From a virus: 39,050 nucleotides of DNA. The stretch's first letter is position 1. Every line of letters starts with the position of its first letter. Positions 6,507 to 13,697 of this stretch are shown piece after piece. The position numbers and the translations under genes were made by a program. Where the stretch lies: IMG/VR virus record IMGVR_UViG_3300036766_000210, positions 1-39,050 of that record; one strand, given 5' to 3'. The notes under the pieces are model-generated. The model saw only the letters and a list, made by a program, of their open reading frames with translations, was not told the DNA's origin and made no database searches.

Positions 6507-6598
6507 GACCGGGGCAACCCGGACGCCCTTATCCGACCTTGGGCAAGTCGTTGCAGCGCTGGATAGCGCCGCTTTCCCTCAGATGGAGCCTTCATAAA
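6507..6598 (+). promoter_or_regulatory. Structured leader of the major capsid gene (copy A)
   Basis: This untranslated leader has three parts: a CCGGG-GCAA-CCCGG hairpin with a GNRA-type loop at 6509-6522; a GCCC/GGGC pair spanning the middle; and a GCGCT-GGAT-AGCGC hairpin at 6556-6569 followed by CGCTTTCCCTCAGATGGAGCC, whose GGAG is the ribosome-binding site. The same layout with high identity precedes the tail tube gene (12861-12950), and the 3' half precedes the gene at 9222. An in-frame upstream start at 6416 exists, but conservation of this block as RNA argues that it is leader and not coding. Confidence 0.65.
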
Positions 6599-7831
6599 AT
6601 GACCAGTCGGGAACTGCGCGCCCAGCGCGCGAAGCTGATCGAAGACGCGCGCGCCCTGATTTCCGGCGACGCGCCTACGGCCGAGGACAACGCAAAATTC
6701 GACGCGATGATGCTGGAGGCCGACAACCTGAAAGCGCAGTTCGACCGCATCGAGCGTGCGGACACCGAGTTTGCTGCCGGCCAGGAAGCGCTGCGCAGCG
6801 AACGGCGCCCCACGGCGAGCGGCGATCCCGATCAGGACCGGGAAACGCTTGATCTGGAGGCTTCGACCTTCCGCACATGGATGCGCAGCGGCCCGGGCGC
6901 GCTGAGCGCCGAGCAGCAGCCGATCTTCGCCAAGCGGTTCCAGGCGGCGCAAAGCACGGGACTGGACACCGGTGGCGGATATACCGTGCCACAGGGCTTC
7001 TATGACCAGCTCATGAGCGCCGAAAAAGCCTATGGCGGCATGACCGACGTGGCGTTCGTTTTCGACACGACGACGGGCAATGCGCTGCCGATCCCGACCG
7101 ACAACGATACCACGAACGCCGGCGCGATCCTGAGCGAGAACGTTCAGACCGGCGCGCAGGATGTGACCTTCGGTTCGGTGACCCTGAACGCCTACACCTA
7201 TACCTCCAAACTGGTGCTGGTGAGCAACCAGCTCTTGCAGGACAGCGCGTTCAACCTCGACGCCTTCCTGTCCGACAAGCTCGGCACCCGCCTGGCGCGC
7301 ATCACCAACACGCACTTCACCACGGGGACGGGCGCGAGCCAGCCCACGGGCGCGGTGGCCGCTTCTACCCTCGGCTACACCGCCGGCGGCACAAGCACGA
7401 GCGGATCGACCGCTACGATCAGCTCCGACGATCTTGTCGAGCTGGAACATTCCGTCGATCCTGCCTATCGCCGCGCGGCTCGTTTCATGATGGCCGACAC
7501 CACGCTTAAGGTTCTCAAGAAACTGAAGGACGGCATGGGCCGTCCGCTCTGGATGGCGGGCCTACAGGTGAAGGAGCCTGACACGATCAACGGATATGGC
7601 TACACCGTGAATCAGGACATGGCGGTTCCGGCCGCGTCGGCAAAAACCATGCTGTTCGGCGACTTCAGCAAGTATTTCATCCGCCGCGTGGCGGGCGTGC
7701 AGGTGCTGCGACTGACCGAGCGGTATGCTGACTACAACCAGACCGGCTTCCTCGCCTTCCAGCGTTGGGACGGCAACCTGGTCGACGCCGGCACGCATCC
7801 GATCAAGCATCTGATCCAGAGCGCGAGCTGA
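6599..7831 (+). CDS. Major capsid protein (HK97 fold)
   Basis: The start at ATG 6599 gives 410 residues. An alternative start at 6416 would add a Pro/Arg-rich stretch that is really the leader. Residues 1-100 form a helical scaffold-like delta domain (SRELRAQRAKLIEDARALI, then MMLEADNLKAQFDRIERADTE), presumably removed by the ClpP-like protease. The shell domain follows with TGGGYTVPQGF, LPIPTDNDTTN, FTTGTGASQPTGAV, YRRAARFMMADTT and GDFSKYFIRRVAGVQVLRLTERY, all characteristic of HK97-type capsids. The capsid gene is set apart from the protease by a 200-bp gap holding a structured leader, consistent with separate control of its expression. Confidence 0.93.
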   Translation: MTSRELRAQRAKLIEDARALISGDAPTAEDNAKFDAMMLEADNLKAQFDRIERADTEFAAGQEALRSERRPTASGDPDQDRETLDLEASTFRTWMRSGPGALSAEQQPIFAKRFQAAQSTGLDTGGGYTVPQGFYDQLMSAEKAYGGMTDVAFVFDTTTGNALPIPTDNDTTNAGAILSENVQTGAQDVTFGSVTLNAYTYTSKLVLVSNQLLQDSAFNLDAFLSDKLGTRLARITNTHFTTGTGASQPTGAVAASTLGYTAGGTSTSGSTATISSDDLVELEHSVDPAYRRAARFMMADTTLKVLKKLKDGMGRPLWMAGLQVKEPDTINGYGYTVNQDMAVPAASAKTMLFGDFSKYFIRRVAGVQVLRLTERYADYNQTGFLAFQRWDGNLVDAGTHPIKHLIQSAS

Positions 7832-7858
7832 CCCCGGCGAAATTTTTCACCCGCTAAC

Positions 7859-7887
7859 TGGCGGCCCGGCTGGGCCGTCATAGGAGG
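7859..7887 (+). promoter_or_regulatory. Hairpin leader of the decoration-type gene
   Basis: GGCGGCCC, loop GGCT, GGGCCGTC forms an 8-bp stem with one G-U pair, directly followed by ATAGGAGGC, a strong ribosome-binding site. A hairpin of the same design and sequence (GGCGGTCC...GGGCCGTC) precedes the tape measure gene at 14371-14392. There is no U-tract, so a plain intrinsic terminator after the capsid gene is unlikely; RNA stabilisation, processing or translational control are alternatives. Confidence 0.5.
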
Positions 7888-7892
7888 CTTCA

Positions 7893-8327
7893 ATGGCTGG
7901 CAAAGACCTGCACGACAACATCAAGGTCGTGCGCTCCATCTCTCCCGTCGCGATCGGCACGACCGGCACCGGCCAGACCGGCAAAGTCGTGGATCGCGCG
8001 GGCTATGAGGGCGTCGAATTCCTCGTAAGTTACGGCTCTGTTACCGCGACGAATGCGGTGGCGACGCTGGTGGTCAAGGAAGGCGATGTGACCGGCACGA
8101 TGACCAGCATCGCAGACGCCGATCTGATCGGCACGGAAGCGAATGCCGGCCTTGCCGCCGCGGTGCGAGCCAGCGGCACGACAAAGAATGTGACCAAGCG
8201 CCTCGGTTATGTCGGCAGCAAACGATATGTCCAGGCATTCAAACTCAGCAGCACCATTTCGGCCGGCATACCTGTCGGTGTTGATATCCTGCTCGGGTTC
8301 CCGCACAATGCGCCGGTCGCGACCTGA
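7893..8327 (+). CDS. Virion structural protein, probable capsid decoration protein
   Basis: The 144-residue product begins MAGKDLHDNIKVVRSISPVA and is rich in Ala, Gly, Thr and Val with alternating hydrophobic residues (VEFLVSYGSVTATNAVATLVVKEG), consistent with a small beta-rich protein. Its place right after the major capsid gene, with a strong ribosome-binding site, fits an abundant head decoration or head-fibre protein. Similar small proteins starting with a KDLHxNIKVV motif occur behind capsid genes in alphaproteobacterial phages (from memory, unverified). I see no enzyme motif. Confidence 0.6.
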   Translation: MAGKDLHDNIKVVRSISPVAIGTTGTGQTGKVVDRAGYEGVEFLVSYGSVTATNAVATLVVKEGDVTGTMTSIADADLIGTEANAGLAAAVRASGTTKNVTKRLGYVGSKRYVQAFKLSSTISAGIPVGVDILLGFPHNAPVAT

Positions 8328-8333
8328 TTCATC

Positions 8334-9137
8334 GTGGCGCCCAAGAAGCGGCCGGCCAAGGCGGTTCGATCTGAGCCGCCGGCCGCGCTACACGCCCCGC
8401 CGGCCGCGCTACACACCCCCGAGAGCGTCGCCATCCTCGGCCTAGGACCCTCTCTCGAAGCCTATGCGGATATCACGAAACGCCAGGGCGCGCGCCGGGC
8501 GATGTTCGACGAGGTGTGGGGGATCAACGCTGCGATCGACGTGTTCAACTGCGATCGCGGCCTGCACATGGATGATGTCCGCGTGCAGGAAATCCGCGCC
8601 GCGGCCAGGCCAAAGAGCAACATCGCGGCCATGCTGCCGTGGCTCAAGAAGCACCCTGGCCCGATCTACACCAGCGTTCCGCACCCGGACTATCCGGGTC
8701 TTGTCCCGTATCCGCTCGAAGCAGTGCTGAATTCCTGCGGACGCACGGCATATTTCAACTCGACCGGCGCCTATGCGGTCGCGCTTGCCGTGCACATGGG
8801 CGTCAAGAAGATATATCTTTTCGGCATTGACTATTCGTTCCAGGGATCGCACGAAGCTGAAAAAGGTCGCGCCTGCGTGGAATTCTATCTTGGCATTCAC
8901 AAGGCGCGCGGCGGCATCATCGGCCTGCCGGCGGGCACCACCTTGATGGACGGCATCGCGACCAAACAGGAGCGCCTCTACGGCTACGATGGCATGGATC
9001 TATCGTTCTCAGGCGATGACGATCAGCCGCTGCGCGTGACGTTCACCCCGCGCGATCTGCCGACTGCCGACGAAATTGAGACGCGATACGATCACGGCAA
9101 GCCCACAGTTCCAGAGGAGCTGTTGCGGAAGTCTTGA
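8334..9137 (+). CDS. DUF115/glycosyltransferase-like Rossmann protein inserted in the head block
   Basis: The 267-residue product starts at GTG 8334. After a low-complexity start with a duplicated PPAALH unit (an 18-nt direct repeat around 8379-8414) comes SVAILGLGPSLEAYADI, a nucleotide-binding-like G-x-G-P-S-L motif. FDEVWGINAAIDVF, then YFNSTGAYAVALAVHMGVKKIYLFGIDYSF and GRACVEFYLGIHKARGG follow. The GxGPSL start with a later IYLFGIDY strand resembles DUF115/MAF-type (6-hydroxymethylpterin diphosphokinase-like, sialyltransferase-like) proteins. In a phage head block, a role in modifying virion or cell-surface sugars is conceivable. It is not part of the usual HK97 gene order and looks like an acquired gene. 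The function is not established. Confidence 0.5.
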   Translation: MAPKKRPAKAVRSEPPAALHAPPAALHTPESVAILGLGPSLEAYADITKRQGARRAMFDEVWGINAAIDVFNCDRGLHMDDVRVQEIRAAARPKSNIAAMLPWLKKHPGPIYTSVPHPDYPGLVPYPLEAVLNSCGRTAYFNSTGAYAVALAVHMGVKKIYLFGIDYSFQGSHEAEKGRACVEFYLGIHKARGGIIGLPAGTTLMDGIATKQERLYGYDGMDLSFSGDDDQPLRVTFTPRDLPTADEIETRYDHGKPTVPEELLRKS

Positions 9138-9179
9138 TGCGCGCGCCTGATGTGAATTCGCCTTCCACCGATCCTCGCC

Positions 9180-9221
9180 GCGTCGTGATGACGCCGCATT
9201 CCTCTCAGATGGAGCCCCGAC
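9180..9221 (+). promoter_or_regulatory. Structured leader (copy B, 3' half only)
   Basis: GCGTC-GTGAT-GACGC at 9180-9194 is followed by CGCATTCCTCTCAGATGGAGCC and the ATG at 9222. Compared with the capsid and tail-tube leaders, the last two base pairs of the stem change together (GCGCT/AGCGC there, GCGTC/GACGC here), so pairing is kept while sequence differs. The upstream GCAA-loop hairpin of the other two copies is absent. Confidence 0.55.
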
Positions 9222-9632
9222 ATGGTAGCCGCCTCCAACCCCAACATCCCTGCGAAGGTGCAGCACGTCAACAACGGTGACTCGCTCGTCGTCAAATCCG
9301 GCGGCGAGTTGACAATCGAGGTCGGCGGCACGCTCACCGTCGCGGGCACGCTCACCAGCTACAAGGTGGCGCGCGGCCAGATAATAACGGACTCGGCCTC
9401 CGTCACCGTTGTTACGGGACTGGCGACGGTCGTGGCGGCGGTGGCGAATTTGGAGAGCGCGCCGGTTCTGGCCTGCGATCGCGCAAACGCGAATATCGGC
9501 AATCAGGCTGGCGCTCCGGCGGCTGGGTCAATTCTGATCACCACATGGATGCCAACTTCCAGCAGCGTCACGACGCCGATCGCGGCGACGACCTTCAGCA
9601 AGGTGGTCAACTGGATCGCGATCGGGACTTAG
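9222..9632 (+). CDS. Small virion protein with beta-repeat N-terminus, function unknown
   Basis: The 136-residue product contains VQHVNNGDSLVVKSGGELTIEVGGTLTVAGTLTSY, a run of short Gly-separated beta strands as seen in beta-helix or fibre-like virion proteins. The rest is Ala/Thr/Val-rich with no catalytic motif. The gene has its own conserved leader (copy B), shared with the capsid and tail-tube genes, so I expect an abundant virion component such as a head fibre or decoration protein. That role is inferred from position, composition and leader only. Confidence 0.5.
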   Translation: MVAASNPNIPAKVQHVNNGDSLVVKSGGELTIEVGGTLTVAGTLTSYKVARGQIITDSASVTVVTGLATVVAAVANLESAPVLACDRANANIGNQAGAPAAGSILITTWMPTSSSVTTPIAATTFSKVVNWIAIGT

Positions 9633-9723
9633 TCAACAGAGGCACGATAAATCTTGATGAGCCGATGCGCGCGAGCCTCGATCTGCTGTCAGAATCGAAA
9701 CCCACAGACAAGGGCGACTTAAT

Positions 9724-10101
9724 ATGACCGGTTGGACCAACAAGGGGAAATACCAGATGCTGGGCCGCGCCTACCGTGGTGTGGCACTTCCCACGAATTT
9801 CTATGTCGCGCTGGTGACAAGCGCAGTTGCGCCGGTCGCGGACACCGACGTGAAATCCTCACTGACTGAAATCGCCAGCGGCAACGGCTACACGACGGGC
9901 GGCATTTCGTTGTCGAAGAACTCCACCGATTTTGATGTGTGGACCGAGGACGACACCAATGACCGCGGCCTGATCCAGATCAAGGATCTGGTATGGACCG
10001 CGTCTGGCGGCGCGCTGCCGGCATCGGGCAACGGCGCGCGCTACGGTGCAGGCGTTTCTCGTGGCGCCAGCGGACAAAGGCTCTTATCTGGTGACATTTA
10101 G
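9724..10101 (+). CDS. Virion protein with an abnormal, frame-disrupted C-terminus
   Basis: The first 102 residues look like a small phage virion protein family: TNKGKYQMLGRAYRG, LPTNFYVALVTSA, SLTEIASGNGYTTGGISLSKNSTDFDVWTEDDTNDRGLIQIKDLVWTASGG, ASGNGARY. In relatives I recall, GARY continues into AVLTDDN and a longer tail. Here it runs instead into GAGVSRGASGQRLLSGDI and stops. The same DNA read one base later encodes a sensible unrelated protein end (see 10043-10168). I therefore regard this as a truncated gene joined out of frame to the end of a second gene. The N-terminal part may still fold and be used. Confidence 0.6.
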   Translation: MTGWTNKGKYQMLGRAYRGVALPTNFYVALVTSAVAPVADTDVKSSLTEIASGNGYTTGGISLSKNSTDFDVWTEDDTNDRGLIQIKDLVWTASGGALPASGNGARYGAGVSRGASGQRLLSGDI

Positions 10102-10168
10102 AATCACCACATCGAATGGACGCACGCTAAGCCGCTCTGCATCGGTGGGCGTCGCGGTGCGCTCTTAG
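10043..10168 (+). pseudogene. 3' remnant of a fibre/tail-adaptor-like gene, out of frame
   Basis: In the +1 frame relative to the gene at 9724, this stretch encodes TVQAFLVAPADKGSYLVTF followed by RITTSNGRTLSRSASVGVAV and a TAG at 10166-10168. The SYLVTFRITTSNGRTLSRS pattern is a beta-sandwich strand pair like that at the end of small phage adaptor proteins (R-I-T-T-S-x-G-R-T). It has no start codon or N-terminal part of its own. It is therefore either a remnant left by a deletion that fused two neighbouring genes, or is reached by a +1 frameshift. Confidence 0.5.
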
Positions 10169-10179
10169 GAGATAGCGAA

Positions 10180-10593
10180 ATGGCGAACTTGCTTACTCTG
10201 CCGGTCACAACGGCGGTGGCGGCCGGCGTCGGCCAACCCATGATATTGAGCCGTTCGCCTCGGAATCTCGCGGTGCAATTCAACTTTATCTATGGGTCGG
10301 GCGGCACATCGGTAGACGCCTATCTGCAAACCAGCCTCGATAATGGGGCGACCTGGACGGACATCGCCAACTTTAGCGCCACCACGGCTAGCCTGCGCAG
10401 AATCATCAATCTGATCGCGACAACGCCGAAGACAGCCCAGGTCACGCCCACCGATGGATCGATGTCGGCGAATACCGCGCTGGATGGCATTCTCGGCCCG
10501 CTGTTTCGGGTCAAATACACGACGGTTGGCACCTATGCGGCCACGACGATCGCTGTGGGTGTGCAGGCCGACCAGATCACAGCCGGCCCGTAG
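10180..10593 (+). CDS. Virion protein, function unknown
   Basis: The 137-residue product starts MANLLTLPVTTAVAAGVGQP after a good ribosome-binding site (TAGGAGATAGCGAA). It is rich in Ala/Thr and beta-strand-like patterns: LAVQFNFIYGSGGTSVDAYLQTSLDNGATWTDIANFS, resembling a jelly-roll or Ig-like small virion protein. YLQTSLDNGATWTDIA is common in such proteins. Its position, between head decoration genes and the connector, points to a head fibre or minor head protein. I do not recognise a named family. Confidence 0.5.
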   Translation: MANLLTLPVTTAVAAGVGQPMILSRSPRNLAVQFNFIYGSGGTSVDAYLQTSLDNGATWTDIANFSATTASLRRIINLIATTPKTAQVTPTDGSMSANTALDGILGPLFRVKYTTVGTYAATTIAVGVQADQITAGP

Positions 10594-10599
10594 CCTCCG

Positions 10600-11460
10600 A
10601 TGCTTATTGCAACCACCACCACGATCATGGCGTCGGCAATAACGCACGACCTGACGGACCTCGAAACCGCCAAAGATGAGCTGCAAATCAAGGCGATGGA
10701 CACGGCGAATGATGCGTTCATTGGCCGGGCGATCACTCAGGCTTCTGCTGCGATCGCGAGCTATTGCAACCGGGTGTTCGCGGTCGAAACCGTGCAGGAC
10801 GTGATATATCCACGTATTGGCGCAGGTGGGGGCATCGCGCCTCTCCAGCTTTCTCGTTGGCCAGTTATCCCCGACAGCGCGATCCTGACGACAAGCGCAC
10901 CGACAGCGTCCGGTCTTGTGTTGCACTTCGCAGCTACCGCCGGGGTTTCCGTGGGACAGCCCGTAGCCGGCGATAACATTCCGGTCGGCGCCGTGGTGGC
11001 GTCGTTCGTCACCAAGACCAGTGTGACGCTAAATGTGCCGGTCTCTGGGGCCATTGCCGACGGCGCGACGGTCCGTTTGGGCGTGGCTGTCACGATGACA
11101 GGCGCGAATGGAACGATGACATCGCTTGTGTCCGGGACAGATTATACGATCGACCCGGTCTGTGGTTGGCTGATCCGGCTCGGCGCGGGTGGCATTCCGA
11201 CGGCGTGGACTGCCGCGACGATGACCGTTGTATATCAGGCCGGCTACGATACGATGCCGGCTGATATCGAAGATGCCACGCTGCGGGTCATTGCTCAACG
11301 ATGGGCGGGCCGCGGTCGTGATCCACTACTGAAAAGCCAGTCGCAGCCCGGGCTCGGTGATCAGACATACTGGATCGGCACCGTGCCGGGGGTGAGAGGC
11401 GTTTTCACTGAAGAGATCGCGGGGCTGCTTGATGCCTACCGCGTGCCGCTTATCGGATGA
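10600..11460 (+). CDS. Head-tail connector (gp6-like adaptor) with inserted beta module
   Basis: The N-terminal 65 residues carry the gp6-like pattern: HDLTDLETAKDELQIKAMDTANDAFIGRAITQASAAIASYCNRVF. The C-terminal part has MPADIEDATLRVIAQRWAGRGRDPLLKSQ, also usual for this family. Between them (about residues 98-155) lies an extra module, VGQPVAGDNIPVGAVVASFVTKTSVTLNVPVSGAIADGATV, which makes the protein much longer than the 100-200 residues common for gp6 homologues. This adaptor ring sits below the portal. A second ATG at 10627 is possible. The gene overlaps the next by 4 nt (ATGA). Confidence 0.75.
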   Translation: MLIATTTTIMASAITHDLTDLETAKDELQIKAMDTANDAFIGRAITQASAAIASYCNRVFAVETVQDVIYPRIGAGGGIAPLQLSRWPVIPDSAILTTSAPTASGLVLHFAATAGVSVGQPVAGDNIPVGAVVASFVTKTSVTLNVPVSGAIADGATVRLGVAVTMTGANGTMTSLVSGTDYTIDPVCGWLIRLGAGGIPTAWTAATMTVVYQAGYDTMPADIEDATLRVIAQRWAGRGRDPLLKSQSQPGLGDQTYWIGTVPGVRGVFTEEIAGLLDAYRVPLIG

Positions 11461-11957
11461 CAACCATCGGCATTGAGCTTACGGGCGAACGCGCCGCGAT
11501 CCTGCGCTTCGAGCAGTTCCCGAAATTCGCGCACGACCGGCTCTTCGCCGCACTGCAAAATATCGAACAACGCCTTGAAGCCGCCGTGTTGGCGGCCGAG
11601 CCGGAGAAGACCGGGCAGTTGAAGTCCATCACTGGCGGCCGGGTCTATGACCACGACAATCGGATCGCCGCTGTGGTTGGCGTCAGGACGCAGGATGGCA
11701 ACATTGCCCGAAAGGCGGGGGCTCTCGAATATGGATCGCGTCATGAGTCATTGATGGTCCGGGCCCACACCGCAAAACTTTCGCATCTTTGGGGCCGTGC
11801 GATTTCGCCGATCTCCGTTGAGGTCGGCGCGCACAGCCGAACCCCGAACATCGACGCATTCAGGTTTCTGCGCGGCCCCCTGGACGCGATCCGTTCGACG
11901 GCCATCGCGGAGCTTCAGGCGGCGCTGGATGCCGCGACAAAGGATGGTTCTGCATGA
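11457..11957 (+). CDS. HK97 gp10-like head-tail joining protein
   Basis: The 166-residue product shows the gp10-like plan: a helical start (FPKFAHDRLFAALQNIEQRLEAAVLAAEPEKTGQLKSI), a central beta part (VGVRTQDGNIARKAGALEYGSR), and an RGPLDAIRSTAIAELQAALD C-terminal helix. The A-x-x-L-E-Y-G-S segment is typical of this family, which forms part of the neck in siphophages. It overlaps the connector gene by 4 nt upstream and the next gene by 4 nt downstream, as usual in a neck operon. Confidence 0.8.
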   Translation: MTTIGIELTGERAAILRFEQFPKFAHDRLFAALQNIEQRLEAAVLAAEPEKTGQLKSITGGRVYDHDNRIAAVVGVRTQDGNIARKAGALEYGSRHESLMVRAHTAKLSHLWGRAISPISVEVGAHSRTPNIDAFRFLRGPLDAIRSTAIAELQAALDAATKDGSA

Positions 11958-12589
11958 GCGGCCGGGAACCCATCATGGTGGCGCTGCTGAATCTGTTCAC
12001 GACGGCGATCGCCTCGACGTTCATCGGAACCACTTCCTACAATTCGCCGATCGTCACTGCCATCGCTTCGACGGTTGGCCTCTTTGTCGGAATGCCAACG
12101 GACAGCGCCAAGACGCCGGCCGACGCTACAATTCTGAGCATCGACAGCGCCACGCAGGTTACGCTTTCCGACGCTGCCACGGCCGCCGGCACGGGCGTTG
12201 TATTTACGACGGGCTTCCGCACCACGGGGCGCCGCCTGAAAATGTGGACCCAGACACCGGAGCAGCCCGCGCTTTTCCTGCGCAACGTCGGTGACGAATA
12301 TCCGCCGCGCACGACCCGCATGCTGCCGAAGGTCGCGATGGAAGCCGAGGCGTGGGTCTACAGCAATGCTGGCTCTGACCCGGATGCAGTGCCGGCCGTC
12401 ACGCTCAACTGGCTTCTGGATGCCATCGAGAAGGCCCTGAAGCCGGCACCGGGGTTCGAGGCGCAGACGCTCGGCGGCCTCGTCGCGCATTGTTGGATCG
12501 AAGGCAAAATTGAAATGCACCCCGGTGATCTTGACGGCCAAGCGATCGCGGTCGTGCCGATCAGCATCCTCGTTCCCTCCACCCTGTAG
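11954..12589 (+). CDS. Probable tail terminator / tail completion protein with inserted module
   Basis: The 211-residue product starts MSGREPIMVALLNLFTTAIA. Residues about 28-68 hold a module FVGMPTDSAKTPADATILSIDSATQVTLSDAATAAGTGVVF, similar to the one inside the upstream connector protein. The rest (LKMWTQTPEQPALFLRNVGDEY, TLNWLLDAIEKALKPAPGFEAQTLGGLVAHCWIEGKIEMHPGDLDGQAIAVVPISILVP) matches the layout of tail terminator-type proteins, which cap the tail tube at the head end. Position between gp10-like and tail tube genes supports this. Confidence in the exact role is moderate. Confidence 0.65.
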   Translation: MSGREPIMVALLNLFTTAIASTFIGTTSYNSPIVTAIASTVGLFVGMPTDSAKTPADATILSIDSATQVTLSDAATAAGTGVVFTTGFRTTGRRLKMWTQTPEQPALFLRNVGDEYPPRTTRMLPKVAMEAEAWVYSNAGSDPDAVPAVTLNWLLDAIEKALKPAPGFEAQTLGGLVAHCWIEGKIEMHPGDLDGQAIAVVPISILVPSTL

Positions 12590-12598
12590 GAATCTCAC

Positions 12599-12859
12599 AT
12601 GTCGGATGAACCAACGCGAGGCGCGGAAGCGCCAGACGCCGCCGCGGCGTTTCTGGAAGCCGAGACGGCGCAGACATGGGCCGGTCAGAGGCTCGCCACG
12701 CTAGCGTCTGACCGCTCGGCTGCAACCGAGGCGCTGCTTGCCCGATGGATGAACGATTGTATCCACGGCACCGTCGTTTCGCGCGACACCGAAGTCGTCA
12801 ACTACATCAGCACCCAAGCATTGCCCGAACTTGCGCGGCGGCTCTTTGCCGCAGACTGA
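12599..12859 (+). CDS. Small protein of unknown function in the neck/tail block
   Basis: The 86-residue acidic, Ala-rich helical product contains AAAFLEAETAQTWAGQRLATLASDRSAATEALLARWMNDCIHGTVVSRDTEVVNYISTQALPELARRLFAAD. It lies between the tail terminator and the leader of the tail tube. No motif is recognised. Its frame has high third-position GC like its neighbours and ends right at the conserved leader, so it looks like a genuine gene. A tail assembly helper is possible from position only. Confidence 0.55.
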   Translation: MSDEPTRGAEAPDAAAAFLEAETAQTWAGQRLATLASDRSAATEALLARWMNDCIHGTVVSRDTEVVNYISTQALPELARRLFAAD

Positions 12860-12860
12860 C

Positions 12861-12950
12861 TGACCGGGGCAACCCGGCCGCCCCACCCGGCCTTGGGCAA
12901 GCCGCCGCCGCGCTGTGACAGCGCCGCATTCCCTTTGATGGAGCCTCCCC
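12861..12950 (+). promoter_or_regulatory. Structured leader of the tail tube gene (copy C)
   Basis: CCGGG-GCAA-CCCGG at 12864-12877 is followed by a CCTTGGGCAAG segment and the perfect hairpin GCGCTG-TGA-CAGCGC at 12910-12924. Then comes CGCATTCCCTTTGATGGAGCC, whose GGAG is 7 nt before ATG 12951. The element matches the capsid leader (6507-6598) over its whole length with a few gaps and substitutions, although the two following genes are unrelated. The stem is extended by one pair compared with the capsid copy. Confidence 0.65.
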
Positions 12951-13697
12951 ATGGCATCAACGTATTCGGAACAGATTGGCTTCGGCGCGGGCGTGCTGGT
13001 TGGCACGCGCCTTGATGTCACGCCCGCGACGCCGCGGCGCTTTGGCATCTTGCAGGATGCGCAGATCGATTTTACCGGCGAAATCAAGGAGCTTTTCGGC
13101 AGCCGGCGCTTCGCCGAGGCCGTGGCCACCGGCAAGACCAAGGTTGAGATCAAGGCCAAGTTCGCGGGCATTCGCGGCAGCCTGTTCAATGATCTGTATT
13201 TCGGCAACACCACGGTGGCGACTCAGACCAAATTCGCCGATTCCGAAGCCGGCACCATTCCGGGCACTCCCTACGCTATCACGGTGACGAATTCCGTGAC
13301 TTGGGTGGCTGACCAGGGCGTGTTCTACGCCGCGACCGGCGCGCAACTGACCAAAGTCGCGTCCGCGCCGGCCACGAAACAATACTCTGTGGCCGCCGGC
13401 GTCTACACATTCGCGGCGGCCGACACGACGCTTGGCGTGGTGATATCCTACACCTACAGCACGTCAGCCGGCCTCGTGATCCCGATCGCGAACAGCGCGA
13501 TGGGGTCGGGGCCAAGTTTTTCCGTCATCCTGTCGCAGCCGTTCGACGGACGCCAGGCGAATTATATTTTCAACAATTGTCGGGCGTCGAAACTCGCGCT
13601 CCCGACCAAGGGCGACGACTTCACCATATCGGAAATGGATTTCATGGTGGCGGTCGATTCGTCCGGCAACATCGGCTCGATCAATCTGGAGCAGTAG
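12951..13697 (+). CDS. Major tail tube protein
   Basis: The 248-residue product begins MASTYSEQIGFGAGVLVGTR and has the tube-protein pattern: GILQDAQIDFTGEIKELFGSRRFAEAVATGKTKVEIKAKFAGI in the first half and PFDGRQANYIFNNCRASKLALPTKGDDFTISEMDFMVAVDSSGNIGSINL in the second. It is placed directly before the tail assembly chaperones and tape measure, the standard siphophage order. A middle insertion (about residues 100-180) reads like an Ig-like domain with TPYAITVTNSVTWVADQGVFYAATGAQLTKV. It polymerises into the tail tube, and its conserved leader fits high expression. Confidence 0.88.
   Translation: MASTYSEQIGFGAGVLVGTRLDVTPATPRRFGILQDAQIDFTGEIKELFGSRRFAEAVATGKTKVEIKAKFAGIRGSLFNDLYFGNTTVATQTKFADSEAGTIPGTPYAITVTNSVTWVADQGVFYAATGAQLTKVASAPATKQYSVAAGVYTFAAADTTLGVVISYTYSTSAGLVIPIANSAMGSGPSFSVILSQPFDGRQANYIFNNCRASKLALPTKGDDFTISEMDFMVAVDSSGNIGSINLEQ

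Follow-up and report, generated by a model that had tools for sequence, protein, structure and literature searches.

Three genes in a 39,050-base window, the record of an uncultivated virus (IMG/VR record IMGVR_UViG_3300036766_000210), are preceded by copies of an RNA leader that we found before major capsid, tail-tube and other virion genes of many unrelated tailed phages. The element is ~80 nt long and consists, from 5' to 3', of a pseudoknot GCCN/NGGC, a hairpin (P2), a second hairpin (P3), UCCC, a Shine-Dalgarno sequence and the start codon. That it represents a real structured RNA family is close to certain, and it very probably acts in cis on the expression of the virion gene downstream. 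We favor, with a probability of about 0.5, the view that it is a portable cis-acting leader that supports strong, independent translation of abundant virion mRNAs via the host machinery, and perhaps their stability.

A sequence-only reading of the window had proposed that the leaders of the major capsid gene, the tail-tube gene and a small virion gene share a selected, covarying RNA structure. When we checked the window sequence, every feature named in that reading was present in its place, including the stems GCGCT/AGCGC, GCGTC/GACGC and GCGCTG/CAGCGC among the three leaders, GATGGAGCC before the start codon in each of them, and the hairpin CCGGG-GCAA-CCCGG (P1) at 6509-6522 and 12864-12877. 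The two full leaders (capsid and tube) gave a local alignment score of 98, compared with a mean of 15 and a maximum of 34 for 4,962 random pairs of 92-mers drawn from the same genome. The third leader scored 38-40 against either of them, slightly over the random maximum, and resembled them in its 3' half only. BLAST of the first leader against its own genome returned the three leader places and nothing else, and megablast of the region against named phages gave no match. The P1 hairpin, which the sequence-only reading had counted in the shared leader, proved specific to the window phage, and the conserved core begins 3' of it.

The element was then found to extend far beyond the window. Among relatives of the capsid protein, a CTTNGGCAAG hairpin precedes the capsid gene in five contigs (L005, L006, L007, L013 and L095), and it also stands before a tail-tube-like gene in L101. 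Two gene-blind DNA patterns, each joining the CTTNGGCAAG hairpin to a Shine-Dalgarno sequence, matched at least 105 and at least 119 stretches when scanned over IMG/VR. The distance between hairpin and Shine-Dalgarno sequence was sharply peaked at ~34-40 nt in these matches, which is not expected by chance. Searches with a covariance model (R1) recovered many copies missed by the patterns, often two or three per contig, and brought the total to 239 distinct elements. A covariance-model search upstream of capsid and tube genes had been set beforehand as the test of the sequence-only reading, and its outcome was strongly positive. We also used a model (R2) of 29 sequences from which the window and L005, L006, L007 and L095 were left out. 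R2 scored window copies 2, 1 and 3 at 70.6, 65.8 and 39.3 bits (E = 2.4e-26, 2e-24 and 8e-14) and nothing else in the 39-kb window above 11.1 bits. In a set of 985 kb, made up of Mae-JY02, Pan4, the window and 17 near-complete IMG/VR phages, it gave 43 matches, some of them from overlapping pieces. Phage genomes carry two to four copies, located before co-expressed genes.

The two full window copies share even the variable upstream hairpin, which speaks for copying within this lineage. As a full explanation, however, chance resemblance or a recent duplication within the window phage is already refuted by the 239 distinct copies in many unrelated phages and by the E value of 2e-24 or better that the independent model assigned to both full copies. 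P1 is identical in the two leaders (6507-6522 and 12862-12877) in a region that otherwise varies freely between phages, as if one leader had arisen as a copy of the other through recombination or gene conversion.

All three helices of the element covary above shuffled controls, as selection on RNA structure predicts; relatedness between sequences was controlled for by redundancy filtering and by slid registers. P2 is a stem closed by the loop CUUNGGCAA. In 73 non-redundant sequences anchored by the loop sequence only, stem pairs 2, 3 and 4 were formed in 68, 63 and 56 cases, respectively, against permuted means of 32, 36 and 33, and registers slid by one or two bases paired at or below chance. 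RNAalifold recovered P2 unguided from a plain MAFFT alignment. P3 has a stem of five pairs (NCGNN/NNCGN), a loop of the GNRA-like or GGAN type and a conserved mismatch that is A·C in 35/70 and C·C in 13/70 sequences; its two outer pairs were each formed in 61/70 sequences (33 and 32 when permuted). From 50 sequence-anchored 20-mers, RNAalifold returned the exact P3 structure, with a covariation score of 0.507 versus 0.173 for shuffled sequences (0/500 shuffles) and at most 0.172 for slid versions, and with 86.7% pairing versus 65%. The 5' strand of the pseudoknot, GCC, lies 11-16 nt 5' of the bulged C of P2 in 84% of 141 non-redundant elements but in 21% of shuffles. A fourth pair, between the base after GCC and the variable base of the NGGC loop, was formed in 88 of 124 elements, compared with 65 when permuted (0/10,000 permutations). 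Some copies have an altered loop or stem yet retain GCCC/GGGC (e.g., L381:922).

This pattern of change bears on a role at the DNA level. A late promoter, an operator or a recombination linker at gene junctions that serves module swapping would also account for copies that repeat within a genome, sit at gene boundaries and precede non-homologous genes. However, conservation of sequence is expected of a DNA site, whereas here both sides of the stems change and pairing is kept; the GNRA-like loops and the fixed orientation and start-codon spacing also argue against such a site, which we consider highly improbable.

In the window, where all features lie on the + strand, copy 1 spans 6518-6601 and ends with the start codon of the major capsid gene (6599-7831; HK97 type, phrog_10). 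It contains the proposed pseudoknot strand GCCC at 6525-6528 and its partner GGGC at 6541-6544, P2 at 6534-6550 (CGAC-C(bulge)-UU-GGGC-AA-GUCG, placed by the stem-pair counts and RNAalifold), P3 at 6553-6572 (GC-A-GCGCU-GGAU-AGCGC-C-GC, with an A·C mismatch), and UUCCC with the Shine-Dalgarno block GAUGGAG at 6574-6588. Copy 2 (12872-12953) likewise ends with the start codon of the tail-tube gene and, together with P1, occupies a 91-nt gap between two genes. Its proposed pseudoknot joins GCCC at 12880-12883 to GGGC at 12895-12898; P2 (CGGC-C(bulge)-UU-GGGC-AA-GCCG) lies at 12888-12904, P3 (GC-C-GCGCU-GUGAC-AGCGC-C-GC, or alternatively GCGCUG-UGA-CAGCGC) at 12907-12927, and UUCCC with GAUGGAG at 12929-12943. 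The gene behind it (12951-13697) belongs to phrog_8234, a family of unknown function in PHROGs, and probably encodes the tail tube, as judged from gene order and a weak fold match: the AlphaFold model, with a predicted local distance difference test (pLDDT) score of 41, is too poor for firm use, and its best PDB matches are weak and are tail-tube proteins. Copy 3 (9152-9224) has P3 (9177-9197), UUCC and GAUGGAG, without P2 and the pseudoknot. It runs into a small gene of 136 amino acids (9222-9632) that has no PHROG match and for which position suggests a virion role. An open reading frame (ORF; 8334-9137) of 267 amino acids, which lies among the head genes with the capsid gene on one side and the tail genes on the other, has a weak sialyltransferase-like PHROG match (E = 2.8e-5).

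The genes that follow the element are mostly those of abundant virion proteins. An ORF was entered by 229 of the 239 elements, and these ORFs fell into 39 protein clusters. Capsid or tube proteins accounted for 191 of them (84 capsid, 100 tube and 7 phrog_8234), and the other assigned clusters comprised phrog_13692 (6 ORFs), scaffold (5-6), decoration (4) and sheath (1). Hidden Markov model searches with the cluster representatives identified at least nine unrelated major-head families (phrog_10, 1005, 212, 1328, 264, 283, 1357, 29 and 371) and five tube families, phrog_8234 being counted by gene order only, in addition to a contractile sheath, scaffolds, a podovirus-type head-tail adaptor and a tail tubular protein. 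The carriers span siphovirus-, myovirus- and podovirus-type phages. These data extend to a whole family what the sequence-only reading had noted for three genes, namely, that the leaders stand before abundant virion genes whose proteins are unrelated. Full copies are mostly found before capsid and tube genes, and copies reduced to P3 are commoner before minor genes, as in window copy 3. All six members of phrog_13692 in our set (L379, L382, L400, L413, L428 and L439; about 497 amino acids, function unknown) lie behind a full element. By analogy, phrog_13692 may be a capsid or another abundant virion protein; its AlphaFold model (pLDDT, 27) is too poor for firm use.

The sequence-only reading had also suggested that the element might bind a phage protein. 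In such a translational operator, a phage-encoded RNA-binding protein would act on P2/P3 and switch the late virion messages jointly, as the coat proteins of RNA phages do. The two to four copies per genome before co-expressed genes would fit this model, as would the conserved loop, bulge and mismatch, which resemble a binding site, and the predicted partial occlusion of the Shine-Dalgarno sequence. Coat operators of the MS2 and PP7 type are bulged hairpins near the ribosome-binding site, with a conserved loop and a variable stem, that are bound by the phage's own coat protein, and the bulged C of P2 and the location of P3 closely before the Shine-Dalgarno sequence recall them. In contrast to these operators, the element contains a pseudoknot and a second hairpin, and one element serves at least nine unrelated capsid families. 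Since the downstream proteins are unrelated, autoregulation by the encoded virion protein is in practice ruled out as a common rule. We compared 20 near-complete carriers, some of which lack an HK97-type capsid, and at BLAST sensitivity found no non-virion protein family common to them; the genes that they share are confined to those for terminase, portal, capsid and tube, plus assorted HNH genes. An apparent family present in 12/20 carriers resolved into assorted HNH endonucleases, and the next group, of methylases, was present in 8/20. Thus, neither the downstream proteins nor the BLAST comparison of the 20 phages yielded a binding protein encoded and conserved with the element, as it is in coat operators. 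The T4 gene 32 leader, a pseudoknot upstream of the ribosome-binding site, mediates autogenous control by gp32 of a single gene in T4-like phages, unlike the multigene, multifamily element described here. Altogether, a phage-encoded binding protein appears rather unlikely.

Because no non-virion family is common to the 20 carriers, we favor conserved host machinery over a dedicated phage protein as the partner of the leader. Within the late polycistronic mRNA, the element would give its gene a strong ribosome entry of its own. The fold would keep the Shine-Dalgarno sequence apart from the coding region upstream and either offer it to the host 30S subunit or gate it, and the compact 5' fold could also lengthen the life of the mRNA; the result would be a higher output of a few virion proteins. 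The chances that translation through the host machinery is the main effect are about even, this mechanism being one that we infer. A more specific form is tentative: as a portable module passed among tailed phages that are unrelated and represent each of the three tail types, the pseudoknot-plus-GNRA fold might directly recruit the host ribosome, or block a host 5' exonuclease (for example, RNase J), thereby lifting expression of whichever virion gene is behind it.

Several observations weigh against the translational reading or the evidence behind it. The predicted folding energy of the element is not below that of shuffled sequences (mean z, -0.3), which leaves covariation as the basis of the case. 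The Shine-Dalgarno sequence is predicted to be slightly less accessible than those of other genes on the same contigs (0.26 versus 0.36 unpaired; P = 0.007), and gating therefore fits better than simple enhancement. The CUUNGGCAA loop and the GGAGCC block were partly fixed by the search patterns, and their invariance is thus partly built in; neither pattern contained the mismatch, the GCCN strand or, apart from one C-G pair, the stems. A CC that seemed invariant behind GGAG was an artifact of the search pattern and was disregarded. Finally, a shared phage factor could have diverged too far to be seen by BLAST.

We also considered whether UCCC takes part in the fold. Pairing of UCCC with the P2 loop showed no clear dependence on the loop base, and pairing with the Shine-Dalgarno sequence (UCC/GGA) was suggestive in one lineage only, both strands being invariant in other copies. 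In three related copies (L348:2350-2434, L393:2768-2852 and L395:10057-10141), UCCC...GGAG is replaced by CUUUCU...AGAAAG (AGAGAG in L395) with complementarity kept, so that a short hairpin may cover the Shine-Dalgarno sequence in these phages.

The sequences 5' of the core are relevant to a role in RNA processing or decay, in which the upstream hairpin would close one stable mRNA and the pseudoknot and hairpins would protect the 5' end of the mRNA that follows. Capsid and tube messages, excised by RNase E or RNase III or shielded from the RNase J 5' exonuclease, would then outlive the rest. Consistent with this, a hairpin of different sequence is often present at the position of P1 in other phages, stems of at least 7 pairs occurring in 40% versus 12% of shuffles, and it is sometimes terminator-like; the compact 5' pseudoknot also fits. 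However, L346 and L402 have no upstream hairpin, the upstream gene stopping ~10 nt before the element, and a decay role does not require the rigid Shine-Dalgarno spacing. We consider such a role unlikely as the main function. Viral exoribonuclease-resistant RNAs, known from eukaryotic viruses, carry a compact pseudoknot at the 5' side of the protected RNA, and their likeness to the element is one of analogy only. The leader of T7 gene 10 is also structured; it makes for high translation and stability of the major capsid message and has, like the element, a stem-loop before the capsid gene. Compared by description, it differs in being confined to T7-like phages, in lying at RNase III sites, in lacking a pseudoknot/GNRA architecture and in not being shared by unrelated capsid and tube genes.

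Most carriers are metagenomic. Short-element blastn against named phages identified clear copies in the Microcystis phages Mae-JY02 and Mel-JY03 and in the Pseudanabaena phage Pan4, isolated on Pseudanabaena sp. Chao 1811 (PMC9837993), in each case before the major tail gene; the other matches looked like chance. In bacterial genomes, matches occurred in 2 of 385 alphaproteobacterial genomes, both before prophage virion genes, and in 1 of 398 Pseudomonadota genomes, where the match, before an agmatinase-like gene (L517), was weak and doubtful and looks like chance. The near-absence from the sampled bacterial genomes, with the clear cases in prophages, indicates a phage element rather than a host leader, and apart from the doubtful match we did not find it before ribosomal-protein or other host genes in the 385 and 398 genomes. 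This distribution also bears on a riboswitch-like sensor whose ligand, a small molecule or an ion, would signal the lytic state. The compact pseudoknot and the conserved unpaired bases adjoining a partly occluded Shine-Dalgarno sequence would suit a sensor, but the genes behind the element are virion genes almost throughout, with no metabolic or host gene other than the one doubtful weak match, and we regard a sensor as very unlikely.

Some close capsid relatives without the element (L008, L009/L010, L011, L012 and L015) share a different candidate leader in the ~100 nt before the capsid start, composed of a nested hairpin GCGCGCGGGCAACCCGCCCCGCGC, a second hairpin and a Shine-Dalgarno sequence (e.g., L011:4580-4656). 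It may be a second leader type. At L101:5497-5576 and L012:5280-5365, an intrinsic-terminator-like hairpin with a T run occupies the place of P3, between P2 (L101, tube gene) or the alternative leader (L012, capsid gene) and the Shine-Dalgarno sequence.

As a structured cis-acting leader, the element belongs to a familiar class, and folded leaders of individual phage genes are known. To our knowledge, no single element common to non-homologous virion genes across tail types has been known. The sequence-only reading had held that no named family fits, and indeed none of the 4227 families of Rfam 15 matched anywhere in the window at gathering score; a permissive scan of five carrier loci gave sub-threshold, chance-like matches only, none of which accounts for the element. 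We found no earlier description in the open literature. Among cis RNA motifs defined by covariation, some of them in phages, manA and wcaG of cyanophages lie before metabolic or light-response genes (PMC2864571), and another set comes from the human microbiome (PMC8040213); the main text of neither paper mentions capsid genes.

If the leader enhances translation or prolongs mRNA life in the host with no phage factor involved, it would be a compact expression part for hosts such as alphaproteobacteria and, perhaps, cyanobacteria. A module that recruits ribosomes or blocks exonucleases would parallel, in bacteria, the viral RNAs that recruit ribosomes or resist exonucleases. In metagenomic phages whose proteins escape annotation, the element flags the genes of abundant virion proteins, as for phrog_13692 and phrog_8234. 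A phage particle requires hundreds of copies of a few proteins, whereas other products of the late operon are needed in ones or tens. One RNA fold placed before non-homologous capsid and tube genes would be a general, transferable solution to this unequal demand for late proteins.

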